Shown here one piece after another: positions 49,286 to 58,164 of a DNA stretch of 64,000 bases. The notes under the pieces were generated by a model. It saw nothing but the letters and a program-made list of their open reading frames with translations. It was not told where the DNA came from and ran no database searches. The stretch's first letter is position 1; the number at the start of each line of letters is the position of its first letter. Location: contig JAUIJE010000009.1 of assembly GCA_030431455.1 (NCBI GenBank), positions 62,001 through 126,000 on the forward strand. Direction: 5' to 3'. The translations under genes were made by a program, and so were the position numbers. This stretch comes from a bacterium (GTDB lineage: Bacteria; Myxococcota; UBA727; JAUIJE01).

Positions 49286-49331
49286 GGTGCGCGACGTCGT
49301 GACCCCTGGCGGCGGGTGCACCGGGAGAATC

Positions 49332-51908
49332 ATGCGCCGCATTGCCCTATTGATGGTCGGCCTGTCTCTGGTCGTCGGGTGCACCGACACCGGATGCGAC
49401 GAGGTCCTGACCCCGCTCGAAGAGCCGATCCCCAACTACAAGTTTTTCGCCGACGGTGCGGTGGCCCGCGTGTCCCCGGCCGGGGTCAACTTCCTCGAGG
49501 ACAACCTCGCCGAGATCGTGGGCGATTTGGCCGCGTTTGATTGCGGCGATCTCAACTGCCCCGCCAGCTGGGCCACGTGCGACGCGGACAACCAGTGCAA
49601 ATCCAAGTTCGCGGGGTACTCGTTCATCGGGGCGCGCATCCCGCCCGCCACCGAGGACATCGGCGGCCTGGGCGGCGTGTTCATCGACAAGTTCCACGTG
49701 TGCCGGCCCAGCGAGGCGGGCTTCAATGACTGCAGCGTCTACGTCGAGGTCGGCGAGATCAACATCGACCCCGGCGCGGGCAACGGCGCGGTGGGCCTGA
49801 CCGCCGACGTGTTGGTGTGGTCGAGCCCGATCAAGACCAAGATCGAATACCTCGTGGGCAGCCAAGACTGCAGCATCTTGCTGCGCCAAGCGGACAACTC
49901 CACCCTCGCGGTGGAAAAGACCTTGAGCACGACCCTGTCGTTCTCCACCGATCCCAACACCGGCCGTCTCGCGGTGGAGGTGGCCAACCCCGACGTCGCC
50001 ATCACCGAGGACGACGTTGTGTTGTGCAGCCCCTTCGACGGCATCCTCAAGGGGTTGGTGTTCGGCTTTGTCGAAGACTCGATCAACGAGCAGATCCAGA
50101 GCTTCACCACCACCGCGATCGAAGGCTTCCTGGGGCAAGCCTGCACCACCAGCACCCAATGTGACGACATCGACGAGGGCGCCACCTGCAACAGCGACGA
50201 CCTCTGCGAGTTCCCGGACGGCAAGCTCATGCCCCGGCTGCTCGGCTTTGAAGGCGCCCTCAACCTCAACGCGCTGCTCGGCGGCTTCGCGGGCGACGCC
50301 AGCGCGGTGGACTTTTCGATCCAGGCCGACGACGCGGCCGGGTCCGGCTCCGCGATCACGGTGGCGCTCAAGGGCGCGGTCGACGGCGAAAGCTCGACCT
50401 GCGTGCCGTCCGCCACCGTGCCCAACCCCACCATTCCCGACTTCTTCCCCGCCGTCATCGGCGACCACATCGCCCTCGCGGCCTCGGACAAGCTGCTCAA
50501 CCGCCTGATGTACGAGGTCTACCGCAGCGGCGCCTTGTGCCAGAGCTTGTCCGGCGAGAGCATTCCCCAATTGCAAAGCGGGGTGCTCTCCAGCCTGCTC
50601 ATCCCCTCGCTCAAGGACATCACCAAAGGCAGCGTGCCCCTGACCATCGACCTGCGCCCCACGTCGCTGCCCACCTTCGAAATCGGCAAGAACGTCATCG
50701 GGCCCGATCCCAACAACCCCGACCAAGACGTCCTGCTCGAGCCGCTGCTCAACCTGGTGATGAACGACCTCGACCTCGACGTGTACGCCGAGGTCGAATC
50801 CGCCCTGGTGCGGGTGCTGACCCTGCGCGTCGACCTCATCGTCGACCTGTCCCTCGCCCTCGGCGCGTCCGGGGAGTTGGTCCTGGTGGCCGGCGACGCC
50901 GCCAACTGGGTGAACAACGCCGAGGTCATCAACTCCCAGCTGCTCGCCGAGGACCCGGCCACGGTGGCGGAGTCGATCCCCACCCTGCTCGGCATCGCCT
51001 TGCCGTTCCTCACCGATTCCCTCGACCAGCAGTTCGCCATTCCCTCGTTCGCGGGCTTCAACGTCAGCGTCAACGACATCACCGGCAGCCAGAGCATCGG
51101 CACCACCGTGCGCGGCGACACCCGCTATGCCCATTTGGGCATCTACGCCGACCTCGACTACGACAGCTCCCAGGCCGACACCTTGCAGATCGAGACCGTG
51201 GCCACCCTGCGCAATGTGGACGTGCCCACCCCCGAGGCGATCCAGGCCGGAGACAAGGTGCGCGTGACCATCGACGTCGACACCCTCCCGGCCCTCGACG
51301 AGGCCCCGGTGGTGTGGGTGCGCGTCGACGGCGGTCTGTGGCGGCCGCCCGCGTCGCGCCGCACCGTGGTGGTGACCGACCCGCTGCTGCACGCCGAGGG
51401 CACCCACACCATCGAGATCGCCGCCGCCCGCGCCGCCGCCCCCGCCACCCTCGACCGCGACCCGCAGGTCATCGAAGTGGTCGTCGACGCGCGGGATCCC
51501 GTGATCGTCACCGAGACCGACGGCGAGACCCTGTTCGTGACCGTCAGCGACACCCTCACCCCCGCGGCCGCGCTGCGGGTCGAAGCCCGACGTGACGGCG
51601 GGGTCTGGGACGAGCTCCTGGTCGACGACGCCGGGAAGGGCTCGATGCCGTTCGACCCGTCCACCGACCTCGTCGACGTGCGGGTCACCGACGGCGCCGG
51701 CCGCTTCGCCCACACCCGGGTGGGGGGCGTACACGGCGGCCCCGCGGGGCCGGATGGTCTGCAGGTGGTCGAGCCCGGCACGCCCGACGCGGACGCCCCC
51801 ACGGTGAGCGCCGGGTCCTGTTCGCACACCGGGGTGCCCGGCACCGCCCCCTGGGGGGCGCTGGTGTGGGGCGCGATGCTGGTCGTGGCCCGCCGCCGCC
51901 GCCGGTAG
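49332..51908 (+). CDS. Large lipoprotein with MYXO-CTERM-type tail
   Basis: 858-residue predicted surface protein. The N-terminus is a lipoprotein signal (RIALLMVGLSLVVGC, Cys18). The body is mostly beta-rich and of unknown fold, with two Cys-rich inserts (CDADNQCKSKF; CTTSTQCDDIDEGATCNSDD) and long amphipathic stretches that could bind lipid. The last 30 residues (SAGSCSHTGVPGTAPWGA, hydrophobic segment, RRRRR) have the Cys, transmembrane and poly-Arg layout of MYXO-CTERM sorting tails. Having both an N-terminal lipobox and this tail is unusual. ATG 49332 follows GGGAGA; the frame also runs upstream to a GTG at 49287 without signal-like sequence. Function unknown. Confidence 0.83.
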   Translation: MRRIALLMVGLSLVVGCTDTGCDEVLTPLEEPIPNYKFFADGAVARVSPAGVNFLEDNLAEIVGDLAAFDCGDLNCPASWATCDADNQCKSKFAGYSFIGARIPPATEDIGGLGGVFIDKFHVCRPSEAGFNDCSVYVEVGEINIDPGAGNGAVGLTADVLVWSSPIKTKIEYLVGSQDCSILLRQADNSTLAVEKTLSTTLSFSTDPNTGRLAVEVANPDVAITEDDVVLCSPFDGILKGLVFGFVEDSINEQIQSFTTTAIEGFLGQACTTSTQCDDIDEGATCNSDDLCEFPDGKLMPRLLGFEGALNLNALLGGFAGDASAVDFSIQADDAAGSGSAITVALKGAVDGESSTCVPSATVPNPTIPDFFPAVIGDHIALAASDKLLNRLMYEVYRSGALCQSLSGESIPQLQSGVLSSLLIPSLKDITKGSVPLTIDLRPTSLPTFEIGKNVIGPDPNNPDQDVLLEPLLNLVMNDLDLDVYAEVESALVRVLTLRVDLIVDLSLALGASGELVLVAGDAANWVNNAEVINSQLLAEDPATVAESIPTLLGIALPFLTDSLDQQFAIPSFAGFNVSVNDITGSQSIGTTVRGDTRYAHLGIYADLDYDSSQADTLQIETVATLRNVDVPTPEAIQAGDKVRVTIDVDTLPALDEAPVVWVRVDGGLWRPPASRRTVVVTDPLLHAEGTHTIEIAAARAAAPATLDRDPQVIEVVVDARDPVIVTETDGETLFVTVSDTLTPAAALRVEARRDGGVWDELLVDDAGKGSMPFDPSTDLVDVRVTDGAGRFAHTRVGGVHGGPAGPDGLQVVEPGTPDADAPTVSAGSCSHTGVPGTAPWGALVWGAMLVVARRRRR

Positions 51909-51940: not shown

Positions 51941-53149
51941 TTACAGCGGCTGGCCGTCCAGTGACATGGCGCCGGCCGCGTCGATGGACAGCTCAATGGT
52001 GCCAAGGCCGAGGCTCCCGTTGTCGGGGGCGTTGGTCAAAAAGTCACACGCCCCGTCGGTGACCATGCCCGCGCCGGTGGCGAGCAGCTCGGTGGAATTG
52101 GCCGCGAGACGCGCCAACACCTGGGGCGCGGGGTGGCAGTAGGCGTTGTCGGTGCCGACGGACAGCACGGTGAGGCGCGGGGACCAGGCGGACACCGCGG
52201 CCGCGTTGCTCGACGTGGCCGAGCCGTGGTGACCGGCGCGGAGCACGTCGACGGCCCCGGTGCGTTCGGCCACGGCGCTCTCGATGTCGACGGTGCCGAG
52301 CCCGCCGCCGGTGAGGTCGCCAAGGATGAGCACGCTGCGGTCGGCAAACGTGGCGCGCACCACCAAGGACACGGCGTTGTCGTCGAGCCCGGCGGGGGCG
52401 GGGGCGGCGCCGGTGCGGCCCCCCACCGCCTCGACCACCAGCGACAGGCGGCCGAGGGCGAGGGTGTCGCCGGGGGCGGGCACGGTGAAGGGATAGGCCC
52501 GCAACGCCCGGAACTCGTCGCACAGCTGGCTTTGGCAGGCCCCGTCGTCGCTGGGGGCGTAGCGCTCGGCGGGCACGATGTCGTCGTCGGTGCCCGCGGT
52601 GCCGTCCGGCCCCTTGAGCAGGCCGACCACGCCCCCGAGGTGGTCGGCGTCGTAGTGGCTGAGAATCACCATCGTCAAGGTGCCGCCCGCGTCCTCGACC
52701 GCGGCGCGCACGACGTCGGTGCGCGATGGTTTGCCCCCGTCGATGAGGGCCCGTTCGCCGTCGGGGGCGAGCAGCAAGGTCGCGTCCCCTTGTCCGATGT
52801 CGAGAAACCGAACGCGCGCCGCGTCGGCGAGCACGGTGAGCGCGTCGGGAAGCTCGGCGACGGTGCCCGCGTTGTCCGCGCTCAGGGTGTAGAGCCCGGC
52901 CGGGGTGGTGGCGGGGGCCTCGACCTCGGCCGCGCCGGTGTCGACCGACAGCGTGCGCAGGGCGACCGACAACCCCGGCGCGACCAAGCTGAAGGTCGTG
53001 TCCTCGGAAAAACCGCTGCCGGTGATCGCGAGGGTCGAGGCCGCGCCCTGGGGGATCACGTCGGGGCTGATCCCGGTCAGCTCGATGCCGCATCCGGTTC
53101 CGAGCAGCACGAACCCCGCGACGGTGGCGCAACGCAGCAAACGACCCAT
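51941..53149 (-). CDS. Lipoprotein with IPT/TIG and ComEC-like metallo-beta-lactamase domains
   Basis: 402 residues. Signal and lipobox (TVAGFVLLGTGC), an IPT/TIG Ig-like domain (about 22-108; ELTGISPDVIPQGAASTLAI), then a metallo-beta-lactamase fold of the ComEC C-terminal type (about 110-390). The motifs are FLDIGQGDATLLLAPDGERA, LIDGGK, ILSHYDADHLGG, LILGDLTGGG and RAGHHGSATSSN. The metal-binding SHYDADH is intact. In ComEC this domain is thought to degrade the non-transported DNA strand, but free secreted forms have unknown substrates. It is divergent (88 bases) from the propeller and helix-hairpin-helix genes. ATG 53149 lies 6 bases after TACGTT with no ribosome binding site. Confidence 0.87.
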   Translation of the reverse strand: MGRLLRCATVAGFVLLGTGCGIELTGISPDVIPQGAASTLAITGSGFSEDTTFSLVAPGLSVALRTLSVDTGAAEVEAPATTPAGLYTLSADNAGTVAELPDALTVLADAARVRFLDIGQGDATLLLAPDGERALIDGGKPSRTDVVRAAVEDAGGTLTMVILSHYDADHLGGVVGLLKGPDGTAGTDDDIVPAERYAPSDDGACQSQLCDEFRALRAYPFTVPAPGDTLALGRLSLVVEAVGGRTGAAPAPAGLDDNAVSLVVRATFADRSVLILGDLTGGGLGTVDIESAVAERTGAVDVLRAGHHGSATSSNAAAVSAWSPRLTVLSVGTDNAYCHPAPQVLARLAANSTELLATGAGMVTDGACDFLTNAPDNGSLGLGTIELSIDAAGAMSLDGQPL

Positions 53150-53237: not shown

Positions 53238-55469
53238 ATGACAGGCACAGACCACTGGCGGGGGGCATGGCTCGCGCGCCTCTCCGCGTTCACGGTGGCC
53301 GCGGGGATGGCGCTGTCACCGCTGGCGCGGGCCCAGGACGATGATGCCGTCGACGAGCTGCCCGACGGTTCGCTCGATTTTGACGACGACCCGCTCACCG
53401 ACGACCCCGGCGACGACTTGCCCGACGACGAGGTCCCCGCCGACGGGCCGGGCTTGGCGCCGGTGGAGGTGCCGGCGCCCCGGGACCCCGCCGACAGCCT
53501 GCGCGACATTTTGCGCCCCAGCGACGTGCCGCGGGCGGAGCGGTTTTTCCGCGACCTGAGCTACGGGTTGCCCCGGGTGCCGTTGACCGCGGTGGCCACC
53601 GATCCGGGCGACACCGAGGTGATTCTGGTCGGGGCCGACGGCTTTGTGTTCAAGTCGGACGACGGGGGCGACACCTGGCGCCCGGTGTTGAGTTTTCCCC
53701 GGGGGCTGCCCGACGGGACCCCGCTCCCCCGGGACACCGACAACGATTTTGACGACGCCGACGACGACGCGGACGACCCCAACGCGTTGCCCATGCGCGA
53801 GGACGACGACGACCCCGAGCAGGTGGACCTCGATGACCCCGACGATGCCGAGGACTTGCTCGAGGACGCGGAAGACAACGACGTGCCCGACTTCGAGGAC
53901 CGCGCGTTCACCGACGAGGACTTGCCGGACGGGGACGTGGACACCGCGCTGTCCGGCAACATCAGCCCCCGGTTGCTCGAGGGGGTCCGGGCGATCAAGT
54001 TCATCTCGCCGCGGTACCGCACAGTGTACGTCGCCACCCCCCGCGGGCTGTTCCGCAGCATCGACATCGGCGAGACCTTTGAGCAGATAGCGCTCCCCGG
54101 GGGCCTGGCCGCCAACGACGTGCGCGACGTGGCCATCGACCAGCGCTCGCCCACCCGCGTCTACCTCGCCACCCGCCAGGGGCTGTTCGTGTCCGACGAC
54201 GGGGGCGCGTCCTTTGAAGAGGGCAACCTCCCGAATCGGGTCCCCGCGCTGTGCGTGTACACCGCCCAGGTCGGCGACGAAGACCTCGTGCTCGTCGGGA
54301 CCGAGCGCGGTCTGTTGCGGTCGTGGGACCGCGGCTTCACCTTTGGCCAGCTGTTGCTCTCGGGGGTGAACGCCTTCACCCCCGTGCAGGACGTGGCTTT
54401 CGATCCGCGCGAGGACGTGACCTACGCGGCGACCAACCTCGGCTTGTTCGTGTCGGTGCGCCGGGCCCCGATCCTCGAGCGGCGCCGCGAGATGGGGTCG
54501 GTGCCCGTGTACGCGGTGAGCGTCGACCCGGCGCGCCCCCTCGGGGTGGCCGTGACCCAGCGCGACATGGGGGTGCTCATCTCCGACGACACCGGCTTGT
54601 CACAGGTCCCGTTGCCCGACCCGTTCCCGGCCCCGGACGCGTTGGGCCTGACCCGTTCCCCCGACGACGGCGACCGGCTTTTGATCGCCACCGAGCGCGG
54701 GCTGTTCGCCCACGCCAAGGGCTCGGGGGTGTCCGCCACCGCCGACCAGCTGCGCAAACTCCAGGACGCCTACCGCAAAGAGCCGACCCTGTCCGAGGCC
54801 GCGCACATGGCGATGCGGTATTTCCGCATCCACCCCGACAGCTACAACTACCTGGCGCGCCGGGTGCGCCACATCGGGTACGGCCCCGCGGTGCAGTTCA
54901 TCTACCGCTACACCAACGGCCGCAGCACCCGCTTCGACGAGGACCTCGTGCTCACCGAGGACGCTCCCGACGATTTTGACACCAGCGACATCAACGACAT
55001 CAATGAGCTGTACGAGCTCGGCATCCTGGTCCGGGCCCCCCAGCGGGGCAACTTCCACGCCGTGTTCGTGCTGTTCCAATGGGACTTCGACCGGCTTTGG
55101 TACAACGAGTACGAGCGCTCGGTGATGAGTTTTCGGCCGCGCCTGCGCACCGCCCAGCAGCGGGTGATCAACCGCCTGGAGATTCTGTACGGGGTGCGCC
55201 GCCGCATCGTCACCGACGTCGTGCTCGGGCGCGATCCCCAGGACGTGTCGTCCCTGGCCACCCGCGCGATCCGCCTGCAAGAGGTCACCGCCCAGCTCGA
55301 TGGCCTCACCGGCGGGGGCTACTCCGACGCCATGCTCGAGCTCGGCGGCAAGCCCTGGGAGCTGACCTTTGAGCCCCCGCCGCGCCGCCTGAGCTTCACC
55401 CCCGCTTTGGCCCCCGACGCGCCCCGCGTTGCCAGGGGGCGATTCACCCTTCACCATGACGTCCCGTAG
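53238..55469 (+). CDS. Secreted beta-propeller protein with acidic insert and novel C-terminal domain
   Basis: 743 residues. A signal peptide (FTVAAGMALSPLARA, near 32) is followed by an acidic Asp/Pro stretch. A sialidase/BNR- or YCF48-like propeller starts at about 100, with repeats such as ILVGADGFVFKSDDGGDTWR, VYVATPRGLFRSIDIGETFE and VYLATRQGLFVSDDGGASFE. The propeller is interrupted by an Asp-rich insert (about 165-235). The C-terminal 190 residues (EPTLSEAAHMAMRYFRIHPD ... FQWDFDRLWYNEYE ... RLQEVTAQLDGLTGGG) match the C-terminus of the next gene's product and no family I recognise. It is 9 bases upstream of the helix-hairpin-helix gene, so one operon. Role unknown; a periplasmic or surface scaffold is an inference. 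Confidence 0.8.
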   Translation: MTGTDHWRGAWLARLSAFTVAAGMALSPLARAQDDDAVDELPDGSLDFDDDPLTDDPGDDLPDDEVPADGPGLAPVEVPAPRDPADSLRDILRPSDVPRAERFFRDLSYGLPRVPLTAVATDPGDTEVILVGADGFVFKSDDGGDTWRPVLSFPRGLPDGTPLPRDTDNDFDDADDDADDPNALPMREDDDDPEQVDLDDPDDAEDLLEDAEDNDVPDFEDRAFTDEDLPDGDVDTALSGNISPRLLEGVRAIKFISPRYRTVYVATPRGLFRSIDIGETFEQIALPGGLAANDVRDVAIDQRSPTRVYLATRQGLFVSDDGGASFEEGNLPNRVPALCVYTAQVGDEDLVLVGTERGLLRSWDRGFTFGQLLLSGVNAFTPVQDVAFDPREDVTYAATNLGLFVSVRRAPILERRREMGSVPVYAVSVDPARPLGVAVTQRDMGVLISDDTGLSQVPLPDPFPAPDALGLTRSPDDGDRLLIATERGLFAHAKGSGVSATADQLRKLQDAYRKEPTLSEAAHMAMRYFRIHPDSYNYLARRVRHIGYGPAVQFIYRYTNGRSTRFDEDLVLTEDAPDDFDTSDINDINELYELGILVRAPQRGNFHAVFVLFQWDFDRLWYNEYERSVMSFRPRLRTAQQRVINRLEILYGVRRRIVTDVVLGRDPQDVSSLATRAIRLQEVTAQLDGLTGGGYSDAMLELGGKPWELTFEPPPRRLSFTPALAPDAPRVARGRFTLHHDVP

Positions 55470-55478
55470 GAGGCGCCC

Positions 55479-56348
55479 ATGTCCCTGACCATTCGACCTG
55501 TCCTCGTGACGATGTTGCTGATGCTGCTGTCCACCGCGGCGTGGGCGGACAAGATCAACATCAACACCGCCAGCGAAGAAGAGCTGCAGGAACTCGACGG
55601 CATCGGACCCAAGCTCGCGGCCGAGATCGTGCGGGACCGCACGGAGAACGGCGGCTTCACCACCGTCGAGGACCTCGCCCGGGTGCGGGGGGTGAGCTCG
55701 CGCCTGGTGGAAAAGCTCCTCGACAAACTCAGCACGGGCGGCAGCAGCGGCGGGGGCGGCTCCATCGTGCTCAAGCAGGGCGAGAAGGTGCCCCAGCAGG
55801 TCGTCGAGCAGATGATGCGGGCCTTTGGCGACGAGCCCACCATCCGCGAGGTACAACAGGCGGCCATCGACTACGCCCGGGCCGACCCCGGCATCGTCGA
55901 CTCCATGCACATCCGGGCCCGCACCGCGGCCGCGCTCCCCGAGATGCGCATCCGCCCCTGGACCTACATCGACCGCGACGTGCGGACCCGCACCAACCTC
56001 GACGCCTCCGAGGCCGTGGTCGAGACCAAGGACGACGACAACTCCTTCCGTTTCGAGGTCCGCGCCACCTGGGACCTCGACGAGCTGATCTTCAGCCCCG
56101 CCGAGCCCCGCATCTGGCGCGAGTCGGCCCGGCTCACCAACCTCCGCGACCGCGTGGTCAACGAGGCCACCCGCCGCTACTACGAGCGCCGCCGGCTCCA
56201 GATCGACCTCAAGCTCTCGCCGCCCACCGATCTGTCCGACCGGGTGCGCAAGGAGTTGCGGGTGCAGGAGCTGACCGCCGACCTCGACGCCCTCACCGGC
56301 GGCTGGTTCTCGGCGGAGCTGTCCGCCGCGGGCAAGGAGCCGTACTGA
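55479..56348 (+). CDS. Exported ComEA-like helix-hairpin-helix protein with the same C-terminal domain
   Basis: 289 residues. Signal peptide (TMLLMLLSTAAWA), then a ComEA-type double helix-hairpin-helix at about 24-85 (DKININTASEEELQELDGIG; PKLAAEIVRDRTENGGFTTV; EDLARVRGVSSRLVEKLLDK), a fold that binds DNA backbone. A Gly/Ser linker follows. The remaining residues (from about 107; EPTIREVQQAAIDYARADPG ... ATWDLDELIF ... RYYERRRLQIDL ... LRVQELTADLDALTGG) align with the propeller protein's end. GTAGGAGG precedes ATG 55479. The protein is not full-length ComEA-plus-membrane-anchor; the mature form appears soluble in the periplasm. DNA binding is expected but unproven. Confidence 0.85.
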   Translation: MSLTIRPVLVTMLLMLLSTAAWADKININTASEEELQELDGIGPKLAAEIVRDRTENGGFTTVEDLARVRGVSSRLVEKLLDKLSTGGSSGGGGSIVLKQGEKVPQQVVEQMMRAFGDEPTIREVQQAAIDYARADPGIVDSMHIRARTAAALPEMRIRPWTYIDRDVRTRTNLDASEAVVETKDDDNSFRFEVRATWDLDELIFSPAEPRIWRESARLTNLRDRVVNEATRRYYERRRLQIDLKLSPPTDLSDRVRKELRVQELTADLDALTGGWFSAELSAAGKEPY

Positions 56349-56442: not shown

Positions 56443-58164
56443 GTGAACCGACCGCAGCGTCTACGCCCCGTCCTTGCCGCCCTCGGTGCCTTCACCGCCC
56501 TCGGCCTGTGCGCCAGCTGCGCGCCACCGGGCGACGACGGGGGCACCGACCTCAGCCCCCCGCGGGTGGTGCGGGTGGAGCCCGCGGGCCCGATCATCCC
56601 CATCGACGCGGACTTCACGATCACGTTCTCCGAGGACATCGCCACCGCCCGGCTGTTCGATCCCGATCCCGACGACGACGAGCCCATCCGTGACTTCGTG
56701 GTCCTGGTGCCCGCCGCGTCGGTCACCGACACCTGGCTCACCGACGTGGCCAACCCCCCGCTCATCGACTCGCGCCAAGACGACATCGTGCCCGGCACCC
56801 TCGAGGTCATCGACAGCGTGACCCTGAAGTTCTCCCCCGAGGGGGTGCTCGCCCGCGGCACCAACTACAATCTCATTGTGAGCGCGGACGTGCGCGACAC
56901 CAGCGGCAACCCCATCGTGGGGGCGGATGGCGAAAAACAAAACTTCGTCTACGACCTGCGCACCGACGCGGGCCCCCCCCAGGTCACCTCCACCAATGCC
57001 TTTGCCACCCTCCCGCCCAACCAAAAGCGGTTCACCGTGGACTTCAACCAACCGGTGCAGAACGTCGACCTCTCCACCGTGCGCTTCTCCGCGTCCGGCG
57101 GCGCGGCGCCGCCGACCATCCAGAGCATCGAAATGAACGCGGCGCGGACCCGGGCCACGGTGTTGGTCAACACCCTGGGCGCGGGGTGCGAACGCTTCAC
57201 CCCCTCGAGCAGCTACGAGCTGCTCGTCGGTCCCGGCATCGAAGACGACAGCGGCCGGGTGATGGGCCAAGAGCCGTTCGAATTTTCCACCGGCGCGGCC
57301 TGCGACCTGAGCCCCAATGTGGTGTTCGGCCGGGGGGTGTCGTGGTTCGCGCGGTTTTTGTCCACCGGCGAAACCGAGGTGCGCATCACCGTCTATTTCT
57401 CCACCACCAAGCCGTCGACCACCGCGGTGCGCTACGGCAACCGCAACGAAGAGCTGGACTGTCTCGACCGCACCTGCCCCGCCCTGGGCGACGACGCCCG
57501 CTTGGTCAACGACCAGGGCTTGTACGTCCACCAAGTGACATTTGAAGACCTGGTGATCGACCAGTCCTACGACTACGCGGTGTTCGCGGAGGACGACGTG
57601 GGCAGCGTCGCGGTGGGCGGCGGCTCGTTCGTGGTCACCCCCACCCCCACGGTGGCGGTGAACGAAATCCTCCCCAACCCGGTGGGCGACGAGGCCAGCG
57701 GGGAGTTCATCGAGCTGGTCAACTACGGCGATGGCCCCGTCTCCCTGCGCGAGTTCGGCATCATCGTCGGCGACAAAGACGAGTGCGCCTTCGGCACCGG
57801 CGCACCCACCATCCAGCCCGACGACTTCGTGGTGGTGGCCAAGCAGTCCTTCGATCCCACCCTCTACCCCGGCTTCGACGAGCTCAAGCTCTACACCCCG
57901 GAGACCGACGACGGCGACTGCGGCTCAGGCGACCTCACGTTGACCAACGACATCCAAGCGGTGCAGCTCACCGACGACTTTGGCGTGTCCATCTCCGCGT
58001 ACGCCGGCTACGCCAACATCCGGCCCACCGACAGCCACGAAGGCGAGAGCATCGAACGCATCAACCCCACCGCCCCCGATGAGAACCCCTCGTTCTGTTT
58101 TGGCGGCGGCGCCCCCTCGCCGGGGCGGGCCAACAGCGTGCTGTCGGTCGGCTGCCGGGAGTGA
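56443..58164 (+). CDS. Lipoprotein with Ig-like and lamin-tail domains
   Basis: 573 residues. Lipobox ALGLCASC in the signal; two Ig-like (Big_5-type) domains (about 32-160 and 168-290; PPRVVRVEPAGPIIPIDADF, TFSEDIA; then KRFTVDFNQPVQNVDL). A central beta-sandwich follows, then a lamin-tail domain (about 405-565) recognised by VAVNEILPNPVGDEASGEFI, ELVNYGDGPVSLREFGI and a late SIERINPTAPDENPSFCFGG. Bacterial lamin-tail domains are commonly attached to exported nucleases or ComEC-like hydrolases, and here the gene is in the same locus as such proteins. GTG 56443 follows GGGAGAG. It lies 94 bases after the helix-hairpin-helix gene, probably the same operon. Confidence 0.85.
   Translation: MNRPQRLRPVLAALGAFTALGLCASCAPPGDDGGTDLSPPRVVRVEPAGPIIPIDADFTITFSEDIATARLFDPDPDDDEPIRDFVVLVPAASVTDTWLTDVANPPLIDSRQDDIVPGTLEVIDSVTLKFSPEGVLARGTNYNLIVSADVRDTSGNPIVGADGEKQNFVYDLRTDAGPPQVTSTNAFATLPPNQKRFTVDFNQPVQNVDLSTVRFSASGGAAPPTIQSIEMNAARTRATVLVNTLGAGCERFTPSSSYELLVGPGIEDDSGRVMGQEPFEFSTGAACDLSPNVVFGRGVSWFARFLSTGETEVRITVYFSTTKPSTTAVRYGNRNEELDCLDRTCPALGDDARLVNDQGLYVHQVTFEDLVIDQSYDYAVFAEDDVGSVAVGGGSFVVTPTPTVAVNEILPNPVGDEASGEFIELVNYGDGPVSLREFGIIVGDKDECAFGTGAPTIQPDDFVVVAKQSFDPTLYPGFDELKLYTPETDDGDCGSGDLTLTNDIQAVQLTDDFGVSISAYAGYANIRPTDSHEGESIERINPTAPDENPSFCFGGGAPSPGRANSVLSVGCRE

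Follow-up and report, generated by a model that had tools for sequence, protein, structure and literature searches.

Two adjacent genes in the window (the whole stretch of DNA analysed here, 64,000 nucleotides from a contig of a Myxococcota genome) encode proteins, called A and B in what follows, that begin with different modules and end in stretches resembling each other. The locus raises the questions of whether the two ends form one domain, to what kind of fold this domain belongs, and what it could do when attached to such different partners. An earlier note, made from the sequence alone, knew no family with the signature of the shared end and took it for a possible docking or surface-targeting module.

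Gene layout and N-terminal modules

The genes of A and B are co-directional, with 9 bases between them, and the N-termini of both proteins are signal-peptide-like. The features of the locus are collected in Table 1.

Table 1. Features of the A/B locus, in window positions; OMF-related assignments are predictions.
Feature	Position	Strand	Content or basis
TIG + ComEC-type metallo-beta-lactamase, probable lipoprotein	51941..53149	-	Pfam Lactamase_B; TIGR00361; PDB 9ic4
Protein A gene	53238..55469	+	ORF, 743 aa; signal peptide, Asp-rich segments, BNR/Asp-box beta-propeller, C-terminal half-OMF domain
Putative half-OMF domain (single TolC/OEP-type repeat) of protein A	54735..55346	+	Profile match E 2.4e-47 (own genome); AF2 model; OEP profile comparison
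Protein B gene	55479..56348	+	ORF, 289 aa; signal peptide, ComEA-like HHH, C-terminal half-OMF domain
ComEA-like helix-hairpin-helix (HHH) domain (B residues 24-84)	55548..55730	+	HHH_3, TIGR00426, VIA-align
Putative half-OMF domain of protein B	55779..56342	+	AF2 model; Foldseek/VIA-align to TolC, OprM, OprN, CusC, VceC
Beta-hairpin strands of B domain (residues 155-171, 181-197)	55941-55991 and 56019-56069	+	AF2 model
Big_5 + lamin-tail-domain (LTD) protein, probable lipoprotein	56443..58164	+	Pfam; conserved third gene

The N-terminal part of A is a BNR/Asp-box propeller, with strands from E102 to E494 in the AF2 model. Its Pfam matches (Sortilin-Vps10, BNR and PSII_BNR) are all below cut-off, and its Foldseek matches are of the YCF48, GH74 and WD40 kinds. 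The fold of A and of its fused homologues is that of the BNR/YCF48-type propellers and, weakly, that of the PorZ N-terminal propeller, from which A differs by the predicted OMF repeat that it carries. In B, the N-terminal module matches Pfam HHH_3 (E 2.1e-19) and exceeds the cut-off of TIGR00426 (62.1 against 53.1 bits), which assigns it to the tandem HHH of ComEA type, and it superposes on the ComEA structure 8dss with a VIA-align Z of 13.2 at 0.8 A. B stays below the full-length ComEA model TIGR01259, with 64 bits against a cut-off of 152. The resemblance to ComEA covers 45% identity over 64 aa of the HHH part and the predicted export, whereas ComEA occurs alone or on an inner-membrane anchor and the HHH of B is joined to a putative outer-membrane repeat, its DNA binding being likewise putative. 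The attachments had been correctly read in the earlier note, the propeller of A being of the BNR/Asp-box kind and the "DNA-binding-type hairpin" of B being a ComEA-type HHH_3.

A domain shared by the two C-termini

When the whole proteins are compared by BLASTP, A residues 505-707 align with B residues 109-289 at 26% identity (E 2e-13). The Smith-Waterman score of the two C-termini is 156, as against 32.7 +/- 5.0 (maximum 54) for 1000 shuffles and 29 for the reversed sequence, and profiles built separately from 31 relatives of B and 12 relatives of A match with 99.9% probability (E 1.6e-34, 182 columns), so that the profile-profile similarity is significant and A and B share a C-terminal domain, as had been proposed. 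The landmarks described earlier (EPT, a Pro 17 residues on, WD(F/L)D, RRR and R(L/V)QE(V/L)TA.LD.LTGG) are all there in the same order, and the coordinates first given for the two ends were accurate to about 40 bases. Across the 31 domains of the second-gene type, P54, W98, E109, R137, D170, T173 and G174 (second-domain numbering) are invariant.

Sequence relationship to TolC/OEP proteins

In the Pfam and NCBIfam scans made, no member exceeded any cut-off for the C-terminal domain, and the earlier remark that no family with this signature was known holds at that level; below the cut-offs, a remote match to a named domain, Pfam OEP (PF02321) of TolC, was found for both C-termini. Such sub-threshold matches were obtained for 9 of 48 and 4 of 31 members of two sets (best E 0.0014), OEP being the sole non-HHH Pfam family to match more than two members in either. 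No scanned member reached the OEP cut-off of 22 bits, the best value among those read out being 18.9, and the seven matches read out individually lie in one register, with domain positions 48-51 placed on OEP 29-30. The NCBIfam scan of the family gave only a stray match to TIGR01844 (TolC, E 0.0038), and the family profiles matched no PDB sequence significantly.

Profile comparison by hhalign extends these matches. Against 71 OEP repeats the whole family gave a P of 2.7e-6 over 114 columns, and its sub-profiles gave 5.2e-6 (B only), 2.4e-4 (A only) and 1.1e-4 (fused forms only), with the three sub-profile alignments all beginning at OEP 29-31; the controls (reversed OEP, propeller and HHH) gave P values of 0.2-0.7. 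A smaller OEP set from the genome itself gave a weaker similarity (P 2e-4 to 1e-3), which became stronger with the 71 repeats. Column-shuffled controls scored at most 17.8 in 149 of 150 cases, compared with 28.7 observed, and the remaining one reached 134, a spurious score from 27 columns where its alignment ends raggedly and is rich in gaps. Hydrophobic and polar residues alternate in the second strand (192-200) and at the start of the first, with marginal statistics (p 0.02-0.05).

Predicted structure

The AF2 model of B has a mean pLDDT of 86, with most ten-residue blocks of the domain at 84-98 and the hairpin tip at 58-76, and arranges the domain as H122-133, H137-152, E155-171, E181-197, H208-246 and H252-273. 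In a separate run, the domain of A followed the same order (H502-548, E551-568, E606-614, H624-663, H670-691), its beta-hairpin being partly of low confidence and irregular. An OMF repeat combines two transmembrane strands with a long helix and paired helices, and each protomer contains two such repeats that arose by duplication (PMC8277102); both models show the topology of one such repeat, in which a helix is followed by two long antiparallel strands, then by a long helix and a return helix.

Foldseek searches of the PDB with B returned ComEA/HHH-type matches first and then mostly OprN, TolC, ST50, VceC, OprM, CmeC and MtrE, the E-values to OMFs being 0.04 or worse. VIA-align places B residues 118-287, approximately, on the first OMF repeat (TolC 21-215, CusC 42-236, OprM 45-249), and the domain also fits the second TolC repeat (228-440). 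These alignments superpose 155-171 residues at 5-10 A rmsd with Z of 5.1-5.5, and a Z of about 5 at such rmsd lies in a range described by the tool as common among arrangements of helices; by itself, this superposition of a predicted model would not be convincing.

The weakness of the structural scores, together with the fact that OEP was never matched above threshold, would be in keeping with a domain that is an unrelated envelope fold, its helix-hairpin arrangement being a common one that converged with that of OMFs. This explanation is very improbable, given that the A, B and fused sub-profiles, although built separately, align to OEP in one register where reversed and unrelated controls fail, and that sub-threshold OEP matches recur in one register among members of several phyla. 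Taking profiles and models together, the C-terminal domain is very probably a homologue of the OMF repeat or a very close analogue of it, and the ends of A and B are predicted to be remote, shortened single TolC/OEP repeats, for which the term half-OMF is used here. Fold, topology and profile comparison point to such a repeat in place of the docking or surface-targeting module suggested earlier; a tag of that kind was also considered and rejected, no sorting-signal family having been matched.

The half-OMF domain is like the TolC/OprM proteins (PF02321) in repeat topology, in collinear profile similarity and in the conserved Pro that starts strand 1. The differences are that TolC/OprM proteins carry two repeats per chain and A and B one each, that the half-OMF proteins are fused to a propeller or an HHH, and that their sequence match is sub-threshold. 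The long helix has 39 aa here compared with 67 aa for H3 of the OMF repeat, and the return helix 22 compared with 36 aa for H4 (PMC8277102), so that the predicted alpha-tunnel, if straight, would be about 40 A shorter than that of a canonical OMF. Since OMFs carry their repeats in pairs on one chain and no scanned member reached the curated OEP cut-off, the proteins are not filed as OMFs; they are considered an OMF-like one-repeat variant.

Distribution and evolution

In the genome of the window, the domain is found in the genes of A and B only. A scan of Myxococcota genomes, which the earlier note had proposed, showed the family to be real and widespread, with the domain in 67 of the 193 sampled genomes of the phylum (broad profile) and in none of the large family f13. 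Same-strand clusters of two or three copies within 0.5 kb number 17, in 15 genomes, and one domain copy per protein was found in the loci examined. One genome (G053) has, besides the usual pair elsewhere, three tandem half-OMF copies in 1.7 kb (contig C69, 46655-48354).

Among named genomes, the domain was found in Myxococcota, Nitrospirota, Omnitrophota, Deferribacterota and Cyanobacteriota/Melainabacteria. Outside the myxobacteria, nearly every form is a single protein, about 510-660 aa long, with a propeller of the same family ahead of one domain copy; in locus L087 propeller and domain are on two separate adjacent genes. Most Myxococcota pairs consist of a first gene with propeller and domain and a second with the domain alone or with HHH and domain. 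No propeller was detected near the domain gene in L011-L016, in several single-copy families and in Nannocystaceae. L011-L016 except L014 belong to family f2 of the same order, with sharply reduced genomes of 1.1-1.8 Mb, and have kept a half-OMF of the second-gene type, within 1.5 kb of which no propeller was detected.

A tree separates the A and B copies of Myxococcota, together with the Nannocystaceae and Melainabacteria forms, from 30 fused forms, mainly of other phyla, with a support of 99/100. The A copies lie on very long branches, and the order of A and B is not settled because of branch length. The tree is compatible with the domain having been duplicated in Myxococcota and the propeller-borne copy having then diverged rapidly, a scenario for which long-branch effects preclude firm claims.

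A possible outer-membrane assembly

In OMFs, three protomers close a 12-strand barrel (PMC8277102). The half-OMF pair probably, though by no means surely, forms a six-chain tunnel in the outer membrane with propeller and HHH at its periplasmic mouth, a proposal built on sequence comparison and predicted models. After export, the strand pair of each chain would insert in the outer membrane, and six chains would be needed to close a 12-strand ring because each gives two strands where TolC gives four; the ring could be a homohexamer where there is one gene and A3B3 where there is the Myxococcota gene pair. The helices would form a tunnel shorter than that of TolC. The propeller of A and the ComEA-like HHH of B are placed in the periplasm, on the grounds that the ends of the OMF repeat lie there, and may surround the tunnel mouth, gating it or presenting substrate. 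The computed support comprises proteins of exported type, the shared repeat, the association with a propeller across phyla, as fusion or as neighbours, and conserved adjacency.

An unlikely alternative, and the one closest to the earlier docking idea, is an OMF-derived anchor with no open tunnel, a relic by which the propeller or the HHH would be held at the outer membrane or on a partner. The domain is always C-terminal to other modules, and the A copies diverge fast and have irregular hairpins, as expected if A had lost the pore; against this, a hairpin of two strands is unlikely to be stable on its own in the membrane unless a ring is closed, and lineages with a single gene show strong conservation of the helices with RRR and ELTA.LDALTGG, which suggests that assembly was retained.

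Neighbouring genes and a possible link to DNA

Between 46.8 and 62.2 kb, where the window genes were scanned, no periplasmic adaptor (MFP), pump or T1SS gene was found. OMFs are frequently encoded alone. The gene at 49287-51908 (+) encodes a secreted protein of 873 aa that has a MYXO-CTERM sorting tail and matches LBP/BPI very weakly, and a homologue of it stands beside the same cluster in L065.

The metallo-beta-lactamase (MBL) protein upstream of A scores 66 bits with TIGR00361, under the 190-bit cut-off of that model, and matches the MBL structure of ComEC (PDB 9ic4) with an E of 7.4e-17. It has the H-x-D-x-D-H motif in common with the ComEC MBL domain, from which it differs as a separate exported TIG-MBL protein without the transmembrane part of ComEC. 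Seven other loci have homologues of this divergent gene close to the domain, among them those of Enhygromyxa and Nannocystis, in which no propeller was detected. Elsewhere in the genome of the window there is another TIG-MBL-type match (contig C8). The Big_5/LTD gene stands downstream of B here, a position that it keeps in many relatives from several families, and its homologues adjoin the domain in L064, L065, L075, L079, L102 and others.

The recurrence of the MBL and LTD genes and the match of the B HHH to ComEA would suit a DNA-handling portal, in which the HHH would bind DNA at the tunnel mouth, the ComEC-type MBL would be a nuclease and the LTD protein a surface partner. This role is improbable: within the wider group of the window the HHH was found only in 9 proteins of the second gene, and most fused forms are without it, the Omnitrophota and Nitrospirota loci covered gave no MBL match, and the genome carries a separate full-length ComEC (contig C10). 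Equally doubtful is the broadest version of the proposal, in which an A3B3 half-TolC tunnel, ringed by propellers and HHH and served by the ComEC-type nuclease, would be a Myxococcota DNA portal and the fused one-repeat forms elsewhere would preserve the kind of unit behind the two-repeat TolC.

Significance

The domain picked out in the earlier note is real and unannotated and, on the profile and model evidence, is predicted to be a relative of TolC with a single repeat. Duplication of a one-repeat ancestor is held to have given rise to OMFs such as TolC, and in the open literature searched, the coverage of which is limited, no description of a one-repeat OMF family was found. A widespread one-repeat OMF-like family, encoded by single or paired genes, would make the duplication step testable, and in Myxococcota, Nitrospirota and Omnitrophota it would mark out a class of predicted outer-membrane tunnels that lacks annotation and carries propeller or HHH modules.
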